A stretch of DNA of 40,336 nucleotides from Myxococcales bacterium (GTDB lineage Bacteria; Myxococcota; Myxococcia; Myxococcales; JAKAPL01): the NCBI GenBank assembly GCA_021783235.1, contig JAJXUD010000040.1, positions 1 through 40,336 of the forward strand. The letters run 5' to 3'. How positions within the stretch are numbered: position 1 is the first letter of the stretch; each line of letters starts with the position of its first letter. Below, piece after piece: positions 3,644 through 25,174 of the stretch. The notes beneath the pieces are model-generated. The model made no database searches, was not told the DNA's origin, and saw only the letters and a list, made by a program, of their open reading frames with translations. A program made the position numbers and the translations under genes.

Positions 3644-5935
3644 ATGAACCGGACTGTCATTGGCGCGGTCGCCCTCGGCCTCTTCGCCGCCTGCGGCCAG
3701 GGCGAGGTCAGCGCGAACGAGCGCGCGAAGCAGGGGCACCTCGCCCAGGCGGTGACGAGCTGCGGCTCGGGGCCGACCGTCCAGGGGATCGACGTCTCCT
3801 CGGTCCAGGGCGACGTGAACTGGCAGCAGGTGGCGGCGTCGGGGCGGGCCTTCGCGTTCATCAAGGCGACCGAGGGGACGGGCTACGTGAACCCCACCTT
3901 CGCGAACGGTTGGGCGGGCAGCAAGGCCGCGGGCGTCCTGCGCGGCGCCTACCACTTCTTCCATCCGGGCGAGGATCCGATCGCGCAGGCGAACTTCTTC
4001 GTCCAGACGATGGGGCCGCTCGAGGCGGGCGACCTGCCGCCGATGATCGACTGGGAGGTGACGGACGGCAGCTCGAACGGCGCCGACGCGGCGGCGGGCG
4101 CGGCCTTCCTCGCCCGAGTGCAGCAGCTGACGGGCCGCGTGCCGATTCTCTACACCTACCCGGGCTTCTGGTACGGGCTCGGCGCGCCCTCGGGCTTCGC
4201 GCAGTATCCGCTCTTCATCGCCGACTACGGCGTCTCCTGCACCGACCTGCCGCCGCCCTGGGGCCGCTGGCAGCTCTGGCAGGACGGCTCGACGGGGAAC
4301 GTCCCCGGCGTCGGGGGACAGGTCGACACCGACGTCTTTCAGGGCTCGCTCGACGACCTGCGCGCCTTCGCGCAGAGCTCGGCGGCGCCGCCAGCCATCC
4401 CACCGACCACCAAGACGGGGATCGCGGCCCGGCCGGGCGGCGGCTACTGGCTCGTGCAGGCCGACGGCGGCGTCTTTTCCTACGGCGGGGCGCCGTTCTT
4501 CGGCTCGATGGGCGGCAAGACTCTGAACGCGCCCGTGGTGGGCATCGCGGCGGCCCCCGACGGCCAGGGCTACTGGCTCGTCGCGCAGGACGGCGGCGTC
4601 TTCGGCTTCGGCTCGGCCGGCTTCTTCGGCAGCACGGGGGCCATGCGACTCGCCGCGCCGATGGTGGGCATCGCCGCCACCCCGACCGGCAAGGGCTACT
4701 GGCTGGTGGGCGCCGACGGCGGCGTCTTCTCCTTCGGCGACGCCGGCTTCTTCGGCTCGACGGGCGGCAAGGCGCTGAACGCCCCGGTGGTCGGCATCGC
4801 CGCGGCGCCGGACGGGCGGGGCTACTGGCTCGTCGCCGCGGACGGCGGCATCTTCAACTTCGGCTCGGCCGGCTTCTTCGGCAGCATGGGCTCGACGAAG
4901 CTCGCCGCGCCGGTCGTCGGCGTCGCCGCGACCGCCACCGGCAAGGGCTACTGGCTGGTCGGCGCCGACGGCGGCGTCTTCAACTTCGGCGACGCGGCCT
5001 TCCAGGGCTCGCTCGGCGGGCAGAAGCTCTCCTCGGCGGTGACCGGCATCGCGCCCGAGGGCGAGGGCTATCTGATCGTCGAGGCGGACGGCACGGTGTC
5101 GACCTTGGAGCCCGCGCCCGCGGGCGGCACCGGCTCGGGCAGCGGATCGGCCGGCGGCGGTTCGGGAACGGGGAACGCCCCGGCGCCCTTCTACGGATCG
5201 ATGGGCGGCAAACCCCTCGCGGCCCCGGTGGTGGGAATGGCAGCCCGGCGCGACGGCGCCGGCTACTGGCTCGTCGCCGCGGACGGCGGCGTCTTCAACT
5301 TCGGCGCGGCCGGCTTCTTCGGCTCGATGGGAGGGAAGACCCTGAACGCGCCGGTGGTCGGCCTCGCCGCGACGCCTTCGGGCAATGGCTACTGGCTCGT
5401 CGCCGCGGACGGCGGCATCTTCTCCTTCGGCGACGCACGCTACTTCGGCTCGATGGGAGGCACGAAGCTGAACGCCCCGATCGCCGCCATGGCGGCCGCG
5501 CCCGACGGGGCGGGCTACTGGCTCGTCGGCGCGGACGGCGGCGTCTTCAACTTCGGCTCGGCCGGCTACTTTGGCTCGATGGGGGGCAAGACCCTGAACG
5601 CGCCGGTGGTGAGCCTCGCGGCGACGCCCTCGGGGGCCGGCTACTGGCTCCTCGGCGCCGACGGCGGGATCTTCTCCTTCGGCGACGCGCGCTACTTCGG
5701 CTCGATGGGCGGCGTTCCGCTCGCGAAGCCGGCCTGCGCCATCGTCGCGACGGAGACCGGGGCCGGCTACTGGATCGTCGCTCGGGACGGCGGCGTCTTC
5801 AACTACGGCGACGCCGCCTTCCACGGCTCGCTCGGCAACACGGCCCTCAACGCCCCGGTGGTCGGCGCGGCCGCCGACCTCGCGTCGACGGGCTACTGGC
5901 TCGTGGGCGGCGACGGCGGGATCTTCGCGCTGTAG
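3644..5935 (+). CDS. GH25 lysozyme-type lipoprotein with twelve C-terminal 42-residue repeats
   Basis: The ATG at 3644 has GGAG six bases upstream and gives a lipoprotein leader ending LFAAC (Cys17). Upstream in-frame starts lack this arrangement. The product is 763 residues. Residues 46-245 match glycoside hydrolase family 25, which cleaves the MurNAc-GlcNAc bond of peptidoglycan: GIDVSSVQG with Asp50, the block AFIKATEGTGYVNP, GAYHFFHP, and the catalytic D-x-E as IDWE (Asp136, Glu138). From residue 259 to the end run twelve repeats of about 42 residues built around GYWLVxxDGGxF and FFGSMGG. Repeat 6 is degenerate and holds a Gly/Ser-rich linker. Such repeats are familiar from secreted actinobacterial proteins, where they probably bind surfaces or form a beta-propeller-like array (inference). 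The enzyme would act in the periplasm or at the cell surface. A secreted lysozyme on a lipid anchor could serve remodelling or predation. Confidence 0.9.
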   Translation: MNRTVIGAVALGLFAACGQGEVSANERAKQGHLAQAVTSCGSGPTVQGIDVSSVQGDVNWQQVAASGRAFAFIKATEGTGYVNPTFANGWAGSKAAGVLRGAYHFFHPGEDPIAQANFFVQTMGPLEAGDLPPMIDWEVTDGSSNGADAAAGAAFLARVQQLTGRVPILYTYPGFWYGLGAPSGFAQYPLFIADYGVSCTDLPPPWGRWQLWQDGSTGNVPGVGGQVDTDVFQGSLDDLRAFAQSSAAPPAIPPTTKTGIAARPGGGYWLVQADGGVFSYGGAPFFGSMGGKTLNAPVVGIAAAPDGQGYWLVAQDGGVFGFGSAGFFGSTGAMRLAAPMVGIAATPTGKGYWLVGADGGVFSFGDAGFFGSTGGKALNAPVVGIAAAPDGRGYWLVAADGGIFNFGSAGFFGSMGSTKLAAPVVGVAATATGKGYWLVGADGGVFNFGDAAFQGSLGGQKLSSAVTGIAPEGEGYLIVEADGTVSTLEPAPAGGTGSGSGSAGGGSGTGNAPAPFYGSMGGKPLAAPVVGMAARRDGAGYWLVAADGGVFNFGAAGFFGSMGGKTLNAPVVGLAATPSGNGYWLVAADGGIFSFGDARYFGSMGGTKLNAPIAAMAAAPDGAGYWLVGADGGVFNFGSAGYFGSMGGKTLNAPVVSLAATPSGAGYWLLGADGGIFSFGDARYFGSMGGVPLAKPACAIVATETGAGYWIVARDGGVFNYGDAAFHGSLGNTALNAPVVGAAADLASTGYWLVGGDGGIFAL
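4418..5932 (+). repeat. Twelve tandem 126-bp (42-codon) repeats in the lysozyme gene
   Basis: Each unit encodes a block of the form G-(I/L/V)-A-A-x-P-x-G-x-GYWLV-xx-DGG-(V/I)-F-x-(F/Y)-G-xA-xFFGSMGG-xx-LNAPVV. Units 1-5 and 7-11 are close copies. Unit 6 (about residues 472-533) has lost GYWLV to GYLIV and carries a Gly/Ser linker, which splits the array into two halves. Unit 12 is cut short at the stop codon. DNA similarity between units is high, so unit number may vary between strains by recombination. Confidence 0.9.
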
Positions 5936-7584: not shown

Positions 7585-9654
<2,070 letters not shown>

Positions 9655-9689
9655 CCAGATGATGCGACCGCAACCCACGCGCAGCGCCC

Positions 9690-9780
9690 GCCGCTGGGTC
9701 TCGGGGGCCCCGGCAAGGGCGCGGGGCGCGGGGGCATCGGAGGAGCGGAGCCCGAAGGGCGAGCACCGCACGGGCCCCCG
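9690..9780 (+). repeat. Palindromic repeat element between prkA and yeaH
   Basis: This intergenic stretch shares an ordered set of motifs with the insertion in the glutamate-cysteine ligase gene: CTCGGGGG (9700-9707; 39710-39717), then GGGGGC(C)ATCGGAGGA (9730-9744; 39742-39757), then a GCG/GAGC-rich middle, then GGGCCCCC (9772-9779; 39783-39790). The spacing agrees within three bases. An internal hairpin GCCC-GAA-GGGC spans 9750-9760. It looks like a non-coding REP/MITE-sized element. It separates prkA from yeaH, which are usually closer, and could affect the message between them. Confidence 0.5.
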
Positions 9781-9786
9781 GACCTA

Positions 9787-10893
9787 ATGTCTCTCAAGAT
9801 TAAGCAGGACCACGCCCGCTTCAAGAACATCGTCCGCGGGCGGATCAAGCAGAACCTCAAGAAGTTCATCCAGAAGGGCGAGCTGCTGGGCAAGCGGGGC
9901 GGCGAGACCGTCACCATCCCGCTGCCCACCATCGACATCCCGCACTTCCGCTACGGCCACAAGCAGCAGGGCGGAGTCGGCCAGGGCGAGGGCGAGGTCG
10001 GCTCCTCGCTCGGGCCCGGACAGGTCGAGCCCGGCAAGGGGCAGGCCGGCGAGGGCGAGGGCGAGCACGTCCTCGAGGTCGAGGTCTCGCTCGAGGAGCT
10101 CGCCGCCATCCTGGGCGAGGAGCTCGAGCTGCCGCGCATCCAGCCGAAGGGGCGCGACCGGGTGGTGGCGACGCGGACCCGCTACACCGGCGTCAACACC
10201 ACCGGCCCAGAGTCGCTGCGCCACTTCAAGCGGACCTACAAGCAGGCGCTCCGGCGGCAGATCGCGAGCGGCACCTACGACGCCCGCGCGCCCGTGATCG
10301 TGCCGACGCACGAGGACCGCCGCTACCGGAGCTGGAAGCTCCAGCCGCTGCCCGAGAACAACGCGGTCATCATCTACATGATGGACGTCTCGGGCTCGAT
10401 GGGGGACGAGCAGAAGGAGATCGTCCGCATCGAGAGCTTCTGGATCGACACCTGGCTGCGCTCTCAGTACAAGGGCCTCGAGTGCCGCTACATCATCCAC
10501 GACGCCGTGGCGCGGGAGGTCGACCGCGAGACCTTCTTCCACACGCGCGAGAGCGGCGGCACGATGATCAGCTCGGCCTACAAGCTCTGCCAGGAGATGA
10601 TCGACGCCGACTACAGCCCGTCGGCCTGGAACATCTACCCGTTCCACTTCTCGGACGGCGACAACTGGTCCGCCGACGACACGCGGCTCTGCCTCGAGAT
10701 CCTGCGCGACCGGATGCTGCCCGCCGTGAACCTCTTCTGCTACGGGCAGGTCGAGAGCCCCTACGGCAGCGGCCAGTTCATCAAGGACCTGCGCGAGGGG
10801 TTCGACGGGCAGGAGAACCTGAGCCTCTCGGAGATCGCCGACAAAGAGGCGGTCTACGGCTCCATCAAGGAGTTTCTCGGAAAGGGCAAGTAG
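9787..10893 (+). CDS. yeaH: YeaH/YhbH (DUF444) protein with von Willebrand-type MIDAS
   Basis: At 368 residues this is a full-length DUF444 protein, the standard partner of PrkA. The N-terminus (residues 1-60) is basic and conserved ([18 protein letters not shown]), then comes a Gly/Glu-rich linker (about 60-95), and the C-terminal half holds the metal-ion-dependent adhesion site DVSGSMG (200-206) of a von Willebrand A fold. The protein is thought to work with PrkA and SpoVR in stress and sporulation physiology, though its biochemical activity is not settled. The ATG at 9787 directly follows the palindromic element and has no clear ribosome site. The stop abuts the GTG of spoVR. Confidence 0.92.
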
Positions 10894-12384
<1,491 letters not shown>

Positions 12385-17416: not shown

Positions 17417-17767
17417 TCACTCCCGGGGCACGAGCCTCGCGAGGCCCGAGGCCATGGACAAGGCCAGCTCGGGGCGGCCGTCGGGCTCGCTCAGGTAGTG
17501 GAGCCTGAGCTGCAAGCGACCGGTCTCGGGTAAGACGATCAGCCGGTGGCCGCCCGGCGCCTCGAAATCCCAGACCGAGGGCAGCCGCGTGTGGTCGACG
17601 AAGCCACCGCCGACCAAGGCGTCGCGAAACGACGGCCAGGAGCGCGGCGGCTCTCCCAGATGAATCTCCCAGGTCAGGCGGCGAAAGCAGCCGTGGCCGC
17701 GGACGACCGTCACGCCCTCGCCCGTGAGGGACTCGGGATCGTCGTCGTCGGCCTCAGGCGCCGACAT
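17417..17767 (-). CDS. Small protein of unknown function, last gene of the V4R/Roadblock operon
   Basis: This 116-residue protein is not recognised. An acidic head (EADDDDPES) is followed by alternating strand-like stretches (GVTVVRGHG, LTWEIHL, HRLIVLPETGRLQLRLHYL) that suggest a small beta-rich domain. It has no signal peptide or membrane helix, so it is probably cytoplasmic. Its ATG lies 14 bases inside the end of the tandem-V4R gene, so translation is likely coupled and the protein may belong to the same complex. Third-position GC is high throughout, supporting real coding. Confidence 0.65.
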   Translation of the reverse strand: MSAPEADDDDPESLTGEGVTVVRGHGCFRRLTWEIHLGEPPRSWPSFRDALVGGGFVDHTRLPSVWDFEAPGGHRLIVLPETGRLQLRLHYLSEPDGRPELALSMASGLARLVPRE

Positions 17768-19049
17768 GCGTGACGACGACCTCGGAGAAGGGATGTCCCA
17801 TCGCCGTCGACTGGGTCTGCTCCACCTTCCAGGGAAGCGCGCCGCCGTGGAAGAGCGCCTCGTAGACCTCCGCCGTCAGGTGCACCGGCTCGGTCCACTT
17901 GACCCGGTGGGCCAGCTGCGCGATCGCGAGCGCGGCCCCCTGGAAGAACAGCTCCGGGCCTCGCTTCGCGACGCCGTGCCGGCTGAGGTAGTAGACGCTC
18001 TCGTAGGTGGCGGGGGCACGCACGACCAGGGTCTTGTTCGGCACGAACTCCTGCAGCGTCCAGTGGCCGAAGCCGAGGGCCCTCGCGATCGCGAGCGAGC
18101 CGGCGACGATGGGCCTCGGATCGCCGCTGTGCTTGCCCACCATCCCCTCCCACTCCGGGGAGGCCAGGATGCCGCCGAAGGTGTTGAAGACGCAGACGTG
18201 CCCCGACTCCCGGAGCAGCTCCTCCAGGACTCCCACCGAATCGGGGGCGCGCTTCTCCGTCGCGGCCAAGGCGTCGAACGAGATCCGGTTGTAGTAGCCG
18301 GCGAGGTGCATGGTCACGAACACGCCGAACGCCTGCACGAGGCCGCGCTCGTCGCCGCTGACTCCCGCGGTGAAGTCGCGCAGTCCCTTGGCGATCCCGG
18401 CGATGGTCTCCTCGTCTCCGCCGTTGAAGGTGGGCCTCAGCTGCGCCCGGACCTCGGTGTCGCGAACGGGGGCGACCTGGGCGGGCGGCGAAGCCGACTG
18501 CTTCAGCTCGAAGCGACACTGCTCGGCACGGGTGGCGACGCAGGCGATCTCCGCCGTGTCCATGGTCTCCCGCGGGACGCCGAAGGCCACCTCGACGGCC
18601 GCGGCGGCGTAGCCGGCGGCGAAGGCGTCCGCCGGGCTTCGCCGGCGAACCTTCTGCCCGTACTTCTGCATCCAGGAGTAGCCGTAGTGGAGGAACTCCC
18701 CGATGGCCGCGCCGCCCGCGGCCGCGGCCCCGACCTGGAGCTTGCCGTGCCCCATCGCCGCGAAGGTCTCCATGGCGCACTGCATCTTCTCGACCGGGGT
18801 CACCGCGCCCTTCCGGACGCAGAGCTGCTGCAGAAACGTGTGGGCCGACTCGCGAGCCGCGTTGAAACGAAGCTGAGCTCCCCCTTCCCGTCCGAGGGCA
18901 TCGTCGACGGTCTGGTCGAGGAAGAGATTGAAGTGGTGGCAGTGATAGACCGCGGGGGCTCCCGCCATCGCCATCAGATCGTGGTCCGGCAGGTAGACGC
19001 GGAGAGATTCGGACGCGGAAGCAGGAACCGTCGACATGGTCGTCCCCAT
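17754..19049 (-). CDS. Tandem V4R-like domain protein
   Basis: The ATG at 19049 overlaps the previous stop (TGATG). ATG 19037 is an alternative. The product is 431 residues and reads as two similar halves. The first (about 30-182) ends in IACVATRAEQCRFEL with Cys170 and Cys178, the strand-turn signature that closes V4R (4-vinyl reductase) domains. The second (about 235-428) has the helix ARALGFGHWTLQEF, strand TLVVRAPATYESVYY, helix GAALAIAQLAHRV and the closing EQTQSTAMGHPFSEVVV, where the cysteines are replaced. V4R domains bind small hydrophobic ligands or metals, and the domain has been proposed as the ancestor of the Bet3 subunits of the eukaryotic TRAPP vesicle-tethering complex. A CHH motif (37-39) and Cys77/Cys91 could bind a ligand. 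Assignment is by eye, and the second domain is the less certain. Confidence 0.65.
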   Translation of the reverse strand: MGTTMSTVPASASESLRVYLPDHDLMAMAGAPAVYHCHHFNLFLDQTVDDALGREGGAQLRFNAARESAHTFLQQLCVRKGAVTPVEKMQCAMETFAAMGHGKLQVGAAAAGGAAIGEFLHYGYSWMQKYGQKVRRRSPADAFAAGYAAAAVEVAFGVPRETMDTAEIACVATRAEQCRFELKQSASPPAQVAPVRDTEVRAQLRPTFNGGDEETIAGIAKGLRDFTAGVSGDERGLVQAFGVFVTMHLAGYYNRISFDALAATEKRAPDSVGVLEELLRESGHVCVFNTFGGILASPEWEGMVGKHSGDPRPIVAGSLAIARALGFGHWTLQEFVPNKTLVVRAPATYESVYYLSRHGVAKRGPELFFQGAALAIAQLAHRVKWTEPVHLTAEVYEALFHGGALPWKVEQTQSTAMGHPFSEVVVTHVGA

Positions 19050-19627
19050 CAGATGGAAAGCGTCTCGAGACCCAGGATGTCCTTCACCGACTCTTCGAAC
19101 GCGTCGAGCTGCGGCGCGGAGAGCGCCTCGGGCTTCCTCAGGGCGTCGAGCGAGATGCCCGTGCGCAGCGAGACGCGGGCGAGCGCGGCGTGCGGATCGG
19201 GCGCGTACTTCTCGAGGAATTCGCGGACCCGGATGCTGCGGGGCCGCTCCTTGGCCTCGAGGCGGGGCAGCACGCCGTCGAGGCGATCCAGCAGCCGCTT
19301 CGTGTACATGCGGACCATCCCGAGCGGCGCCTCGCGCTGGAAGGCGAGCGTCACGACGAAGTCGCTGCGCAGCTCCTTGAGGACGAGGAGCAGGTCCGCC
19401 GACTCGATGGTGACCTGCATCTCCGACGACCAGGACTTGAGCGCCTTGAGCCCCTCCCGGTTCGCGCGGACCAGATCGCCGAAGAACGACGCGGTGTCCT
19501 CGGGGATCCACGTCTCGTTGGGCAAGATCCAGGCGTCGAAGAGCAGGCAATCGGGCATCGCGGTCACGAAGACCCCGCGCAGCGACGGCACATCGGCGAC
19601 GACGTCCTTCAACTGGGACCGTTCCAT
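19049..19627 (-). CDS. Roadblock/LC7-like protein with C-terminal extension
   Basis: The ATG at 19627 has GAGGAG seven bases upstream and overlaps the previous stop by one base. The 192-residue protein starts with about 115 residues of Roadblock/LC7 pattern: helix SQLKDVVADVPSL, strand pair GVFVTAMPDCLLFDAWI, a helix with ANREGLKAL, strands EMQVTIESADLLLVLKEL and DFVVTLAFQ, and a final helix RMYTKRLLDRLDGVL. These dimeric folds act as platforms or regulators for NTPases, as MglB does for MglA. A 70-residue helical extension follows (REFLEKYAPDPHAALARVS). It sits between another Roadblock-like gene and the V4R gene, so a heteromeric complex is likely. No GTPase gene is nearby, and the ParA ATPase of the operon is the only candidate partner. 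Confidence 0.65.
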   Translation of the reverse strand: MERSQLKDVVADVPSLRGVFVTAMPDCLLFDAWILPNETWIPEDTASFFGDLVRANREGLKALKSWSSEMQVTIESADLLLVLKELRSDFVVTLAFQREAPLGMVRMYTKRLLDRLDGVLPRLEAKERPRSIRVREFLEKYAPDPHAALARVSLRTGISLDALRKPEALSAPQLDAFEESVKDILGLETLSI

Positions 19628-20343
19628 CAGGCTTCTCCTCGGATGCTCATGGACAACTGGGTGATTTTTCGGATTCGACGCACCATGGTCTGATCGAGCG
19701 CTCCGCCGAGGACCAGACCGACGGCCAGTCGGCCGGCGGCCGTGTCGGACCAGATCACCTGAAGCACGTTCTGGTGATCGAGCTCCACGGTGCTGCTGCC
19801 CGCCTCCGGCGAGGGGACGAAGCGCGCGATGGTCTCCTGGGCCCGGCCGAGCGGACCGATGGCCGCGAGGTAGGACTCCGGGGCGTTGCGGTTCGTGAGG
19901 GGCAACCCCTCGGTATCCGCGACGAAGGCCGCGAAGGCTCCCGTCCCGCCCATGAGCCACTGCACGAAGGCGCCGAGCCTCTCCTCGGTCGGCATCGACT
20001 CGAGGTGGGGGCCGAAGATGGAGGCCTGCAGATCGGCCTCGCTCATCTCCGCGATCGTCGGCAGGCTGCCCGAGTCCGCCGGCTCCTCCGGCGGAGCGGA
20101 CGCGATCACGTCCGAGAAGTCGCCGTGCTCGGTCTCACCGAAGGCTCTCGGAGCGATCGGCGCGCCCGCGGAGACCGGCGAGGCGGCTCGCGCCCTTGGG
20201 CCGTCCGAGGGCTCGGCGGCGAGGATGCTGATGCGATCCGACGGCGCCGCGAACGGCCCCGCGGGGCCGTTCGACGTGACGCCGGCCCGGTACAGCAGCC
20301 GGCTCAACGTCTCGGCGTCAGGCAAAGAGCGGTATGGGGCCAT
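19627..20343 (-). CDS. Roadblock/LC7-like protein with long disordered N-terminus
   Basis: The 238-residue product has a short helical head ([15 protein letters not shown]), a Pro/Ala/Glu-rich linker (about 22-98) and a C-terminal domain (about 117-238) of Roadblock pattern: helix [12 protein letters not shown], strand pair [18 protein letters not shown], helix [16 protein letters not shown], strands [17 protein letters not shown] and GRLAVGLVL, and a closing helix [15 protein letters not shown]. The phrase VADTEGLPL resembles the conserved D-x-x-G hairpin of MglB-like proteins. Its start lies 26 bases inside the ParA gene, and its stop overlaps the next start as TGATG. It is probably a partner of the second Roadblock-like protein. 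The linker may bind other proteins. Confidence 0.68.
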
Positions 20344-21121
20344 CGTCCTTTTCGTCCTTCGCGAGGCCGATGCGCGCCTCGAGTTCCATCGCCGCCTGCT
20401 CGAAGAGCGCCGCGACCGGCGGCGGCTGGTGGCTCAGCAGACCGACCGGAACGCCCGCCCCGCTCGCCCGCAAGAAGAGGGGGTCGCGCGGGATCGTCGT
20501 CTGAAACACCACCGCGTTCGGGAGGTCCGACCAGGCCTCCATCGCCACGCCGAGCGAGTCGGCGTTGTGAAGATCCAGCATCGTGAGCAAGAAGCCGCCG
20601 AGCGTGAGGGTGGCGCCCTCGGCGCGCAGCGCCGCCAGCACCTCCAGGAGCTGCGAGGCCGATCGCATCGCCAGCGGCTCGGCCTGCAGCGGGCTGACGA
20701 CCGCGGTGGAGACCCGCATCGCGCCCAGCGTCACGCCGGTGAAGCCCGAGGGCGTGTCCAAGACCAGGATGCCGTAACGCGGGCCGGCGTCGGAGACCAG
20801 GCGCCGCAGCTCGGCGCCGTCGACCAGGCGGGCAGCCAGCGCGTGCGTGTCCTGAATGGCGATGTTGCCCATCGGCAGGACGTCGAACTCCGGCAGCCGC
20901 GTCTTCACCACCACGCTCTCGAGTGGAAGCTTTCGCGCGACGTATCCCGCGAAGCCGGGCCCCGGCTGGAGCCGCTGGAGGGAGAGCCCGACGCCGCCCT
21001 GGGGGTCGGTGTCCGCGAGCAGCACCCGCTGTCCGCGACGGGCCAAGGCATACGCCAGGTTGAGGGCGACGGTCGTCTTTCCGACGCCCCCTTTCTGGCT
21101 CACGACGCCAATGACCTTCAT
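20318..21121 (-). CDS. ParA/MinD family ATPase
   Basis: The 267-residue protein carries the deviant Walker A KGGVGKTT (10-17) with signature Lys10, the A' motif DTDPQGG (37-43) and Walker [11 protein letters not shown] (117-126). ParA/MinD ATPases dimerise with ATP on a surface (nucleoid or membrane) and position cargo. There is no parB or other chromosome-partition gene nearby, and no N-terminal DNA-binding extension, so this is an orphan positioning or assembly ATPase, as PomZ, ParC or MipZ are. No MinD-type amphipathic C-terminal helix is evident: the tail is acidic ([14 protein letters not shown]). The ATG overlaps the stop of the TPR gene (ATGA) with AGGAG close upstream. Confidence 0.88.
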
Positions 21122-22032
21122 GTGCTCCTCATCCGTTGTTGGAGACGCTCGATGTTGTGCGCGACGCGCCGATCCTCGGGGCGCTCCTTCTGACAGCGGA
21201 GAAACAGCTCGAGCGCGCGCCCGAGATCGCGCCGGAGGTAGGCGTGGGTGGCCTCCCGAAAGAGATCCTCGTAAGCGTCTCCTCCCGCCTCGGGCGCCGG
21301 CGCCTCGGCGGGCGGCGCCTCCGAGACCAGGTTGAGCAGCTTCCCGGGCGGCGTTGGGCCGCCCATCACCAGGACGCCCTTCTCGACGAGGCGCGCCAGG
21401 GAGCGGGCGGTCGAGAAAGGCCCGGCGCTCGACGAGGCGAGGATGTCCTCGGCGGTGGCGATGCCGTCGACGAGCCGCAGCACCGCGTTGTCGGACGGGG
21501 TCGGCAGATCGGCGGCCAGTAGCTGCGCCGCGGCGGCGGCCTTCGTCGGCACCTGGCCCAGGTGGCCGATGGCCGCGAGGTGCTCCCCGTGGAGCTTGTC
21601 CTTGAGCAGCTGGATGGCCCTGGAGACCGAGGCGTTCGCCGGCGCCACGTCGCGAACCCGGTAGAGGACGTCCAGCGCCTCCTCGAGCTTCCGGTCGCGG
21701 AGCAGCGCGAGGAAGCGGGCCTTGTCGAACGAGGCCCCGCCCGGGGCAGCGGCCCCTCCAGCGAACTGGTCGATGATCTCGCGGAGGCCGGAGGGCGAGC
21801 TCTCGCGCCGTTCGATCCGAACCGGCGCCTCTTCGGGGGGAGGCGGGACCGGCGGCCCATGCCCCTCCAAGGCCAGCGCGGCGAGGTACTCCTTGGCCCG
21901 AGGATCGGAGCCATCGAGCGCCAACGCGTCGGTCCAACAGCGGGCCGCGTCCTCCCACCGGTTCATGGCGTAGAAGTCCAGTCCCCGTTGGAGCAGCTCT
22001 TCGAGCGAGTCCTTGGAGATCGCGGCGGCCAC
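21118..22032 (-). CDS. TPR protein with internal winged-helix-like segment
   Basis: Start is the GTG at 22032 with GAGGAA nine bases upstream. The 304-residue protein has a TPR-like pair near the N-terminus (about 8-48: [27 protein letters not shown]), a Pro/Glu linker, another helical repeat (about 103-148), a segment [17 protein letters not shown]...[15 protein letters not shown] (about 183-222) like the winged helix that closes DUF4388/PATAN-type myxobacterial proteins, and a final TPR (about 254-300: [22 protein letters not shown]). TPR proteins hold complexes together. As first gene of the operon it may be the scaffold. The winged helix here is more probably a protein-binding module than a DNA reader. 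Confidence 0.72.
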
Positions 22033-22070
22033 CTGAACGCTTTCCTCTGGGAGCGACCCAGCGAGAGGAC

Positions 22071-22140
22071 TGTATCCTGCGCGACAGAGATCGTGTCAAC
22101 CGTCTCGGCGGGGCCGAACCGCCTCTCACGGGGGCCGAAC
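22071..22140 (-). promoter_or_regulatory. Promoter of the six-gene V4R/Roadblock operon with upstream direct repeats
   Basis: On the minus strand TTGACA (22099-22094), a consensus -35, is 17 bp from GATACA (22076-22071), giving a leader of about 30 bases. Upstream, the 10-mer GTTCGGCCCC occurs twice (22140-22131 and 22119-22110), 21 bp apart, which is two helix turns. That places both copies on one DNA face, in the position of a class I/II activator site. The malG stop is at 22152, so the repeats occupy nearly all of the gap. Confidence 0.6.
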
Positions 22141-22151
22141 GCGCCAGCCGC

Positions 22152-22991
22152 TCAGCCCTTCACGCCGCCCGCGGTGAGCCCCGCGACGAGGTGCTTCTGC
22201 AGCGCGAAGAAGACCAGCATCACCGGGATCGAGACCACGATCGCGCCGGCCGCGAAGTGGCCCCACTCGGTGTGGTACTCGCCCACGTAGCTCTGCAGCG
22301 CCACGGGCAAGGTGTACTTGCGCGCGTCGCCGAGGAAGGTCGCCGCGAGGATGTACTCGTTCCAGGCGGAGAGGAAGGCGAAGAGCGCGGTCACGGCGAG
22401 CGCCGGGCGAGCGAGCGGCAGGATCACCTTCCAGAAGATCTGCCAGCTCGTCGCGCCGTCGATGCGGGCCGCCTCGTCGAGCTCGCGCGGCAGGGTGTCG
22501 AGGTAGCCCTTGAGCGACCAGACGCAGAAGGGCACCGAGGTGGTGCTGTAGACGAGGACGAGTCCCGTCAGGCTGTCGAGCAGCCGCAGGTCGTCGAGCA
22601 GGATGTAGAGCGGGATCGCCATCATGATCCCGGGGAACATCTGCGTCGCGAGGAAGAAGGCGAGCGAGGCCTGCCGTCCGCGGAAGCGGAGCCGGCTGAA
22701 GGCGAAGGCGGCGGTGGCCGAGGAGAGCAGGCCGACGAGCGCCGTCGCCACCGCGACGATCAGGCTGTTGCCGAGCTCGCGCCAGAGGTGCCCCGTGCCC
22801 CCGAGGCCCCAGAGGTCGCGGAAGTTCTGCAGCGAGACGACGCGCGGCCAGGGGCTCGGGCTCGGGTCGAAGGCCTGACCCGGCGAGAGCGCCATCTTGA
22901 TGACCCAGAGCACCGGGTAGAGCGCCGCGCCGGTCGCCGCCACCACGGCGGCGTGTCCCAGCGCGTGGCGGACCGCGGAGGGGCGGCTCAC
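22152..22991 (-). CDS. Sugar-type ABC transporter permease (MalG family)
   Basis: The 279-residue permease has about six membrane helices and the EAA loop [27 protein letters not shown] near the C-terminus that docks on the ATPase, as in MalG-type importers of sugars. The final residues ([13 protein letters not shown]) are the usual MalG tail. The GTG start overlaps the stop of the fused binding-protein/permease gene as GTGA. It completes an importer with the fused protein and the ATPase: together the three genes encode all five functions. The substrate cannot be read from the sequence, and maltose or another oligosaccharide is only a family-level guess. Confidence 0.9.
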
Positions 22992-25174
22992 GCGCTCTCC
23001 CGCCGCGCGAGCAGCTTCTGCGCCCCCACCGAGTAGGCGGCGAGGAGGACGAAGATGATCGCCGCGTAGGCCGCCGCGTAGCCGTACTGGGCCTGGCGCG
23101 CGAAGGCCCAGCGGTAGGCCTCGCTGATGAGGATGTCGGTGGTGCCGCCGGGCTCCCCGCCGGAGACCAGCCAGACGATGTTGAACATGTTGAAGGTCCA
23201 GACGCTCCCGAGGATCACCGCCGGCAAGAGCGCGGGCCGAAGCAGCGGCCAGGTGACGTGCCGGAAGCGCTGCCAGGCGGTCGCGCCGTCGAGCGTCGCG
23301 GCGTCGTGGAGCTCCTGCGGGATCGTCGAGAGCGCCCCCAGGGTCACGACCATCATGAACGGAAAGCCGAGCCAGACGTTCGTCGCGACGTCGGCGCCAA
23401 AGCTCGTCGCGAAGTGCGAGAACCACGAGACCGCCGGGAAGCCGAGCCTCCGCAGGATCCCGTTGATGGCGCCGTACTGCCGGTGGAACATCCCCTTCCA
23501 GATGAGCGCCGTCAGGTAGTTCGGCACGGCCCAGGGGACGACGAGCAGCACGCGGAACAGGCCGCGCAGCCGAAGCCACGGCGCGTGGAGGAGCAGCGCG
23601 AGCGCGACGCCGAGGCCGACGTGCAAGACGAGGTTCGCCCCGGTCCAGAGCAGGGTCACCGCGAGGGTGAAGTAGAACGAGGGCGGCTCGATGATGGCGT
23701 AGCCGCGCGAGGCCAGGATGTCCGCGAAGTTGCCGAGCCCAACGAAGTCGTAGCCGCCGTCCGCCCGGTGGTGGAAGAAGGCGAGGCCGAGCGAGAAGAG
23801 GATCGGAAGGAGGACGAGCGCCACGGTGGCGAGGGCCGCGGGCAAGACGAAGGCATAGGCCGTCCGGCTGCCGCCCTCGGCCGTCCCGGGGCGGCGGCGG
23901 GCGAAGAAGAGCCCCGCGCCGGCGAGGCAGAGCACGAGGGCCAGCGTGGCCCACGGCGCCGCGCGCGGCGGCGGCGGCCGCTGCAGCGCCCGGAGCTGCC
24001 GGTCGGCCCCGGCGAGCGCGACCTTCGGCGACTCGCCGCGCAGCGCCGCTCGCAGCGCCGACTGCCCCGGCTCCCAGACGAGCTGCATGCGCGGCGAGGC
24101 GTCCATCGGGATCGCCAGGGCGGCAGCGGCGCGGAACGCCTGGAGCACCGGATCCTTCGCCACCGACGGGTCGTCGTAGGCCGCCCGGTTCGCGACGAGC
24201 TGGCGGGCGACCTTGGCGCGCAGGAGGGCCGAGTCGTCCGAGACGAGGAAGGCGAGCGCCTCGCGAGCGCCTTCGGGCTCCAGCGCGTGGGCCGAGAGGT
24301 AGAGCCCCTCGACCGTCAAAAAGGGCCGCGCCGGCCGGCCCGTCGCCGAGACGACGGGGAGCGGGGCGACGCCGTAGTCGAGATCCTTCGGCAGCTCGCC
24401 GACGAACCAGGGGCCATTGATCGCGAACGGCGCCTTCCCCTGCGAGAAGAGCTCCGTCACGAGCGCCGAGGTCGCCTCCTGCGGCACGAACCCCTCCGCC
24501 TGGAGCTTCGCCACGAAGGCGAGCGAGGCCTCGGCCCCGGGCGTGTCGAGCTCGAGCCGCCCCTCCGAGCCGGCGCGGCCTTCGGCCTCGTCTCGCCTCG
24601 GGCCCGAGCCGCCCTCCTCCGGCGCGAAGAGGCTCCCGCCGAAGCCGAAGAGCCAGGCCGCGTGGTAGTAGAAGTCGCCGCTCTGGTAGGCGAGCAGGAA
24701 CCGACCCTGGGCGGGATCGGCGAAGCGGCCGCCGAGCGCGAGCAGCTCGTCGGTGGTCTTCGGCGCCGAGGCGACGAGCCTCCGGTTGAAGAAGAGCGCG
24801 AGCGTCTTGAACGCGAGCGGCGCGCCGAGCTGCCTCCCCTCCCAGCGGAACGCCTCGGCGGTGCCGGGCAAGAACCGGGCGGCGTCGACCGCGACCGGCG
24901 CGAGCAGACCGCTCGGCGCCCAGCTCCCCACCCGCTCGTGGGCGAAGACGAAGAGGTCCGGCCCGTGGCCGCGCGGGATCGCCGCCGAGATCTTGGCGGA
25001 CATCGCGTCGAAGGGGATCGAGAGGAGCTCGAGCCGGTAGCGATCCTGGGAGGCGTTGAAGCGGTCGGCCAGCGACTGGAGCGCCTGGGCCTCCTCGGAC
25101 CGGTAGCTGTGCCAGAGCGCCACCGGCCGCGGCGCGACGAGCGCGAGCGCGAGGAGCGCCGCGCTAGCCGACAT
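22988..25174 (-). CDS. Fused solute-binding protein and permease (MalE-MalF fusion)
   Basis: One 728-residue frame joins two proteins that are normally separate. Residues 1-18 are a signal sequence ([10 protein letters not shown]). Residues 19-395 are a sugar-binding lipoprotein-type domain ([47 protein letters not shown]). After a Pro-rich joint (399-406) come membrane helices from about 407, with the MalF core and EAA loop [25 protein letters not shown] (621-645). Tethering the binding domain to the channel would keep it at the mouth of the transporter and remove the need for a free periplasmic protein. About 21 low-complexity residues (186-206) are inserted in the binding domain over a palindromic DNA segment. 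The ATG overlaps the ATPase stop by 11 bases. Confidence 0.9.
24557..24619 (-). repeat. Palindromic GC-rich in-frame insert in the binding-protein domain
   Basis: This segment encodes [14 protein letters not shown]-type low-complexity residues (186-206) within an otherwise family-like domain. It contains the perfect 12-bp palindrome CTCGGGCCCGAG (24597-24608) and a GGCC-GAA-GGCC hairpin. It may be a decayed palindromic element, but it does not clearly match the prkA/ligase element. Confidence 0.3.

Follow-up and report, generated by a model that had tools for sequence, protein, structure and literature searches.

A run of six minus-strand genes at positions 17417–22032 of a 40,336-nucleotide stretch of DNA from a Myxococcales bacterium (contig JAJXUD010000040.1; this whole stretch is referred to as the window) is, as judged from sequence comparison and structure prediction, a real and conserved signalling operon that is apparently undescribed. 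In the order of transcription, its genes code for a probable TPR adaptor, a ParA-type ATPase, two proteins of the Roadblock/LC7 fold (RB1 and RB2), a tandem V4R protein, and a member of an orphan family (F6). Gene surveys and structure models showed these six to be an overlapping, co-inherited unit. We read the unit as a self-contained, ligand-responsive signalling module built on a nucleoside triphosphatase (NTPase) switch, in which the Roadblock pair would control ParA and not a Ras-like GTPase, and put the probability of this reading at roughly 45%.

Small GTPases are the known clients of Roadblock proteins, which regulate or scaffold them; the known drivers of ParA-type ATPases are ParB, MinE or PomX-like partners. 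If the operon joins Roadblock proteins and ParA, it would connect the two principal families of spatial switches in bacteria and offer a route by which a small-molecule signal could reach ParA. The operon would also provide a bacterial setting, with an NTPase of another class, for the V4R and Roadblock folds that are central to eukaryotic TRAPP and Ragulator. In the open-access journal literature, no published account of the combination of V4R, Roadblock and ParA was found; a preliminary description of the same DNA, made from the sequence alone, had likewise not recognised it as a described system.

Conservation and architecture of the gene cluster

A protein scan of 195 genomes of the phylum detected V4R homologues in 13, six of them with the cluster type, and a scan of public contigs yielded 28 loci, all titled metagenome-assembled genome and with Myxococcota and Acidobacteriota among them. 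Removal of duplicates left 29 cluster loci, of which 21 had enough flanking sequence for presence counts; conclusions on gene presence are based on hidden Markov model searches of all open reading frames. RB2 and V4R were present at all 21 of these loci and always adjoined each other, followed by RB1 (19/21), F6 (18/21, each time adjoining V4R), ParA and TPR (17/21 each), and the complete set of six occurred at 14 loci. The gene order TPR-ParA-RB1-RB2-V4R-F6 is that of the Myxococcota, with the TPR gene shifted to the end in the Acidobacteriota. The survey of the six neighbours that the preliminary description had proposed thus recovered the same genes and order in both phyla. Since the domain calls reported below also hold, neither of the two outcomes that had been named as fatal to the idea, an assignment of the proteins to unrelated families or genes that do not stay together, occurred.

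Every junction of the run overlaps, and the coordinates and junctions given in the preliminary description were reproduced. The TPR and ParA genes share four nucleotides (ATGA), ParA and RB1 share 26, RB1–RB2 and RB2–V4R each share one nucleotide within TGATG, and V4R and F6 overlap by 14. The ATGA overlap was found at 12 of 12 loci. The overlap between ParA and RB1 (20318–20343, minus strand, in the window), which encodes both the C-terminal tail of ParA and the N-terminus of RB1, measures exactly 26 nucleotides at nine loci and 29–41 nucleotides in the same phase at five more. As the 26-nucleotide overlap is kept, a single short stretch codes for both protein ends across phyla. The divergences of ParA, RB1, RB2 and V4R were correlated (r = 0.57–0.76, permutation p = 0.001), and clades were common to three gene trees.

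The preliminary description had placed all six genes behind one promoter. A candidate on the minus strand (22071–22099) consists of TTGACA (22094–22099), a 17-nucleotide spacer and GATACA (22071–22076), and lies about 40 nucleotides upstream of the GTG start of the TPR gene. A stricter consensus scan listed no site. As the scan omits this pair, which does stand upstream of the TPR gene, a single promoter for the six genes is an assumption only.

A reduced cluster was seen in a 2.1-Mb genome (L111, 8992–10589, minus strand), where RB2-like and TPR-like genes occur with no recognisable ParA, RB1, V4R or F6.

The tandem V4R protein as a putative input module

The V4R gene (17754–19049, minus strand) encodes 431 residues, or 427 from an alternative start at 19037, with two V4R domains in a single chain. 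Pfam V4R was found in six of seven relatives (best 8e-10), and a phmmer search of the V4R sequence alone against the PDB returned noise only. AlphaFold2 predicted two V4R units with a predicted local distance difference test (pLDDT) score of 94.4 and a predicted template modelling score of 0.93, and the two halves are homologous to each other (hhalign 96%, E = 1.2e-9). In Foldseek searches with the model, PoxR, MopR and DmpR were nearest (E = 3e-5 to 1e-3), making the sensory domain of the PoxR/MopR/DmpR/XylR group (XylR_N-V4R) the nearest solved fold for each V4R unit. Unlike these regulators, the cluster protein has two units per chain and no attached AAA+ or DNA-binding domain.

The N-terminal half contains the metal-site motif ExxCx7C, and E163, C166 and C174 are kept by all cluster members, while the C-terminal copy is intact in some (e.g. 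L031, L024, L044, L061) and decayed in many others including the window. The zinc ligands of DmpR are Cys151, Glu172, Cys177 and Cys185 (PMC7264223). The Cys-Cys spacing in the V4R protein equals that of Cys177–Cys185; the fourth ligand differs in being off the DmpR position, with no Cys at the expected first (Cys151) place.

More distant tandem V4R proteins are found in signalling contexts. At two loci (L026, L030), they adjoin histidine kinase and receiver genes, with V4R directly upstream of the kinase gene, and at a third (L033) the tandem V4R is fused to a histidine kinase and matches both XylR_N and V4R. At L032 (7931–9080, minus strand), it is encoded by two adjacent genes (178 and 199 residues) beside a KAP-family P-loop NTPase, possibly a two-subunit form of the same sensor. 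Three further loci (L025, L027, L028) carry a cassette of a hemerythrin-like protein (the domain was tested in L025), a tandem V4R protein and a small orphan with the conserved motif EVRKACRDELK; these small proteins were considered as F6 candidates and dropped, as profile comparison showed no relationship. Because distant tandem V4R proteins adjoin or are joined to histidine kinase, hemerythrin-like or KAP NTPase genes, the V4R protein of the cluster can be regarded as the probable input module. The ligand responsiveness put forward in the preliminary description is therefore well founded as a prediction, given the phenol-sensor fold and the V4R relatives beside histidine kinase and receiver genes.

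Two distinct Roadblock proteins

RB2 (19049–19627, minus strand; 192 residues) is, by profile comparison, an MglB-like Roadblock protein. Its 27-member profile matched structures of Myxococcus xanthus MglB (1.6e-4) and aligned to an MglB profile with 90% in hhalign. Matches to the RB2 profile occurred in 150 of 195 Myxococcota genomes; those outside the cluster genomes were mostly weak, and the MglB loci detected with PF03259 are among the places where they fell. The genome hits were reciprocal, the next-best one in most Myxococcota genomes coinciding with an MglB locus. Conservation in RB2 is highest in a C-terminal extension of some 60 residues (approximately 130–192; YAPDPHAxLxRVSLRTGI...ILGL), which lies outside the Roadblock domain and has no known relative.

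RB1 (19627–20343, minus strand; 238 residues) consists of a short conserved N-terminal helix motif, a disordered linker that carries it, and a C-terminal Roadblock domain (residues ~102–232). The AlphaFold2 model has the topology helix-strand-strand-helix-strand-strand-strand-helix with pLDDT values above 90 in the domain, and all its top Foldseek matches were MglB/Roadblock structures (E = 1e-5, template modelling score to target ~0.7). RB1 relatives matched LAMTOR5 and Robl_LC7 weakly. RB1 is accordingly predicted to have a Roadblock fold with MglB as the nearest structure, an identity that depends on structure prediction because the RB1 profile gave only noise against PDB sequences. Pfam by itself left RB2 under the cut-off, and single-sequence Pfam and NCBIfam searches gave nothing usable for RB1, RB2 or F6. 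The ParA, double Roadblock, tandem V4R and TPR identities proposed earlier were only partly seen by Pfam, and all of them stand by profile and structure comparison. As the genome of the window contains a separate Robl_LC7/MglB-type gene on contig C109, RB1 and RB2 are additions to a resident MglB-type gene; in relatives, a gene of this type is matched by the RB2 profile.

Among the closest known systems is MglA/MglB of M. xanthus (with RomR, RomX and RomY), from the same phylum, in which Roadblock proteins directly regulate a P-loop NTPase switch. The cluster resembles it in its MglB-like RB2 and differs in that its NTPase is a ParA and not Ras-like, that there are two distinct Roadblock proteins, and that it further contains F6 and a V4R sensor. 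Streptomyces conservons (CvnA-D) are operons in which a sensor is encoded together with a P-loop NTPase and a Roadblock protein of the MglB type (PMC13343842). In contrast to the cluster, the conservon sensor is histidine-kinase-like and the switch a Ras-like GTPase, and the four core proteins include no ParA, V4R or TPR protein.

An orphan ParA

The ATPase gene (20318–21121, minus strand) encodes a short protein of 267 residues without an N-terminal helix-turn-helix and with a conserved C-terminal tail, (D)DxPIxL. It matched Pfam AAA_31 (2.6e-25), and the family profile matched ParA/Soj structures at 1e-37 to 7e-41; on these profile scores it is unambiguously a genuine ParA of the Soj/ParA branch. 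The residues of the deviant Walker A, Walker A' and Walker B motifs are conserved, with Lys10, Asp37, Asp39 and Asp122 kept in 18 of 18 family members and Lys15 in 17 (one K15R). No ParB homologue was found among the cluster neighbours. Since the chromosomal parA and parB of the same genome sit together on another contig (C35), the cluster ParA is an orphan. The preliminary description had noted no partition genes or small GTPase nearby, which stood in so far as no ParB is adjacent and no small Ras-like GTPase occurs among the clustered genes.

Orphan ParA systems such as PomX/Y/Z and McdA/B likewise have a stand-alone ParA with dedicated partners other than ParB, which act via short peptides, and ParA activators generally work through a short N-terminal peptide (PMC13170346). 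The cluster differs in having Roadblock and V4R proteins as partners (a search for homology to PomX, PomY or McdB was not part of the analysis) and in a ParA without conserved Soj-type DNA-binding arginines.

The TPR protein, a probable adaptor, and F6

The TPR gene (21118–22032, minus strand) starts with GTG and encodes 304 residues with an N-terminal TPR, a winged-helix-like middle and a C-terminal TPR hairpin. Several Pfam TPR models matched it at E values of 5e-4 to 1e-2, under the curated cut-off, which a relative at L057 cleared at 1.4e-9. Among 15 relatives, the C-terminal TPR is the one constant part. The front end varies: in the window it is a TPR with a winged-helix-like part, in the Acidobacteriota member L051 it is receiver-like (a weak match), and in others it is DUF4388. 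Judged by domain content, such a lineage-swapped front end is the pattern of signalling adaptors. DUF4388 is presumably related to PATAN-type domains. In cyanobacteria, PATAN-type domains connect signals to type IV pili (PMC7690835); no pilus gene was conserved adjoining the cluster. At one locus (L042), the adaptor TPR and a Ser/Thr protein kinase domain form a single fusion protein (4062–5882, plus strand), and a receiver-Hpt protein is inserted between V4R and F6 (9402–10976).

F6 (17417–17767, minus strand; 116 residues) had zero Pfam or NCBIfam matches. In an alignment of 23 sequences, C27, R84, R88, R98 and A102 are invariant.

Proposed mechanism and points against it

We propose that a small hydrophobic or aromatic ligand occupies a PoxR/MopR/DmpR-type pocket of the V4R pseudo-dimer, of which one half would be metal-supported and the other degenerate. 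RB1 and RB2 would form a Roadblock platform that relays the V4R signal to ParA and governs the ATP-bound dimer form of this ATPase, and the N-terminal helix of RB1 on its disordered linker may be an ATPase-activating peptide of the kind known from ParB, MinE and PomX. The TPR adaptor, with its swappable front end, would link further signalling proteins to the complex. What the module controls could then be how much ParA-ATP is present and where, in a manner comparable to that of MglA-GTP in motility polarity. The more far-reaching idea that a Roadblock heterodimer and V4R sensor core regulating ParA represents a new class of spatial or signalling switch, a prokaryotic counterpart of TRAPP/Ragulator with ParA replacing the small GTPase, is in our view conceivable but not probable.

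Several observations weigh against the proposed mechanism. ParA is missing from four of the 21 long-enough loci (L024, L035, L045, L055), two of which also lack RB1, so ParA is a usual but not universal, and perhaps optional, partner. The profiles of RB1 and RB2 are unrelated to each other at the sequence level. The basic residues of the RB1 N-terminal peptide are present in most members at a level not above expectation, which leaves the basic-peptide idea hypothetical, and the sequence of this N-terminus is partly dictated by the overlap with the ParA tail. Correlated divergence of the mirror-tree type can arise from co-inheritance alone. Against nucleoid-based positioning in particular, the DNA-binding arginines of Soj (R189 and R218) are not conserved: the R218 position is Arg or Lys in 0 of 18 family members, and the R189 position is Arg in 11 of 18 and His in the window. 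Non-specific DNA binding by ParA/Soj depends on basic residues (PMC9178275).

For two elements of the preliminary description, these points matter directly. Its suggestion that ParA stands in for a Ras-like GTPase is reasonable, though weakened by the clusters without ParA. Its spatial-positioning or envelope-trafficking machine found no direct support, in view of the lost Soj arginines and a neighbour survey of the cluster loci that revealed no further conserved gene family and no cargo or membrane gene. Spatial positioning is a plausible output; envelope trafficking is unsupported.

Alternative explanations

In another reading, the machine proper would be made of the Roadblock, V4R and TPR proteins, namely a cytoplasmic ligand-sensing scaffold complex, in which ParA is an accessory ATPase that switches assembly without nucleoid positioning. 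The clusters without ParA, the altered arginine positions, the signalling domains on adaptor front ends and the V4R homologues that feed two-component systems all agree with such a role, which we consider a realistic possibility, though not a probable one. However, ParA is present at 17 of the 21 loci with a conserved overlap with RB1 and full catalytic residues, and the genome of L024 (G016) holds a ParA-RB1-RB2 copy on a separate contig. Moreover, some ParA-type proteins use other basic residues to bind DNA. Control of ParA by the Roadblock pair is the reading that we retain.

An analogue of TRAPP or Ragulator, in which a P-loop NTPase of envelope or membrane trafficking has Bet3-like V4R, Roadblock/longin-like and TPR subunits as its exchange factor or platform, seems unlikely. 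Both the cluster and the TRAPP core or Ragulator group V4R/Bet3 and Roadblock fold families around a P-loop NTPase, the TRAPPC3/Bet3 fold is common to V4R, Ragulator and Rag Roadblock domains are among the RB1 matches, and the same three fold families are present in Asgard archaea, including TRAPPC3 and Roadblock proteins (PMC10933270). Yet TRAPPC3/Bet3 (Foldseek probability 0.97–0.99, E ~0.05–0.2) ranks clearly behind PoxR, MopR and DmpR, so that the V4R protein is nearer to bacterial sensors, the NTPase is a ParA and not of the Rab/Ras class, and no membrane link or conserved membrane or envelope gene was seen among the neighbours.

A ParABS-type partition cassette that belongs to a plasmid or a mobile element, with other proteins replacing ParB, is very improbable. 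The affiliation of ParA with the Soj/ParA branch and the patchy distribution of the cluster would suit it, but no ParB is adjacent and the parB of the genome lies beside its own parA on the other contig, none of the partners of ParA shows a DNA-binding domain, and the flanks are of housekeeping type (ABC transporter, HIT, M23 peptidase, PrkA-DUF444-SpoVR). Chance overlap or hitch-hiking of unrelated genes in a compact genome, where overlaps are indeed common in operons, is refuted by the survey, as genes, order and overlaps are kept across phyla despite the patchy distribution and unrelated flanks.

Genomic surroundings in the window

The cluster lies between a sugar-type ABC transporter operon on its upstream side, whose end is 120 bases from the TPR start, and convergent M23 peptidase and HIT genes on its downstream side. 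The transporter operon includes a solute-binding protein fused to an ABC permease (22988–25174, minus strand; 728 residues; SBP_bac_8/SBP_bac_1 and BPD_transp_1), and a second permease gene (22152–22946) comes after the fused gene. Consecutive PrkA kinase, DUF444 and SpoVR genes occupy positions 7585–12384 on the plus strand.

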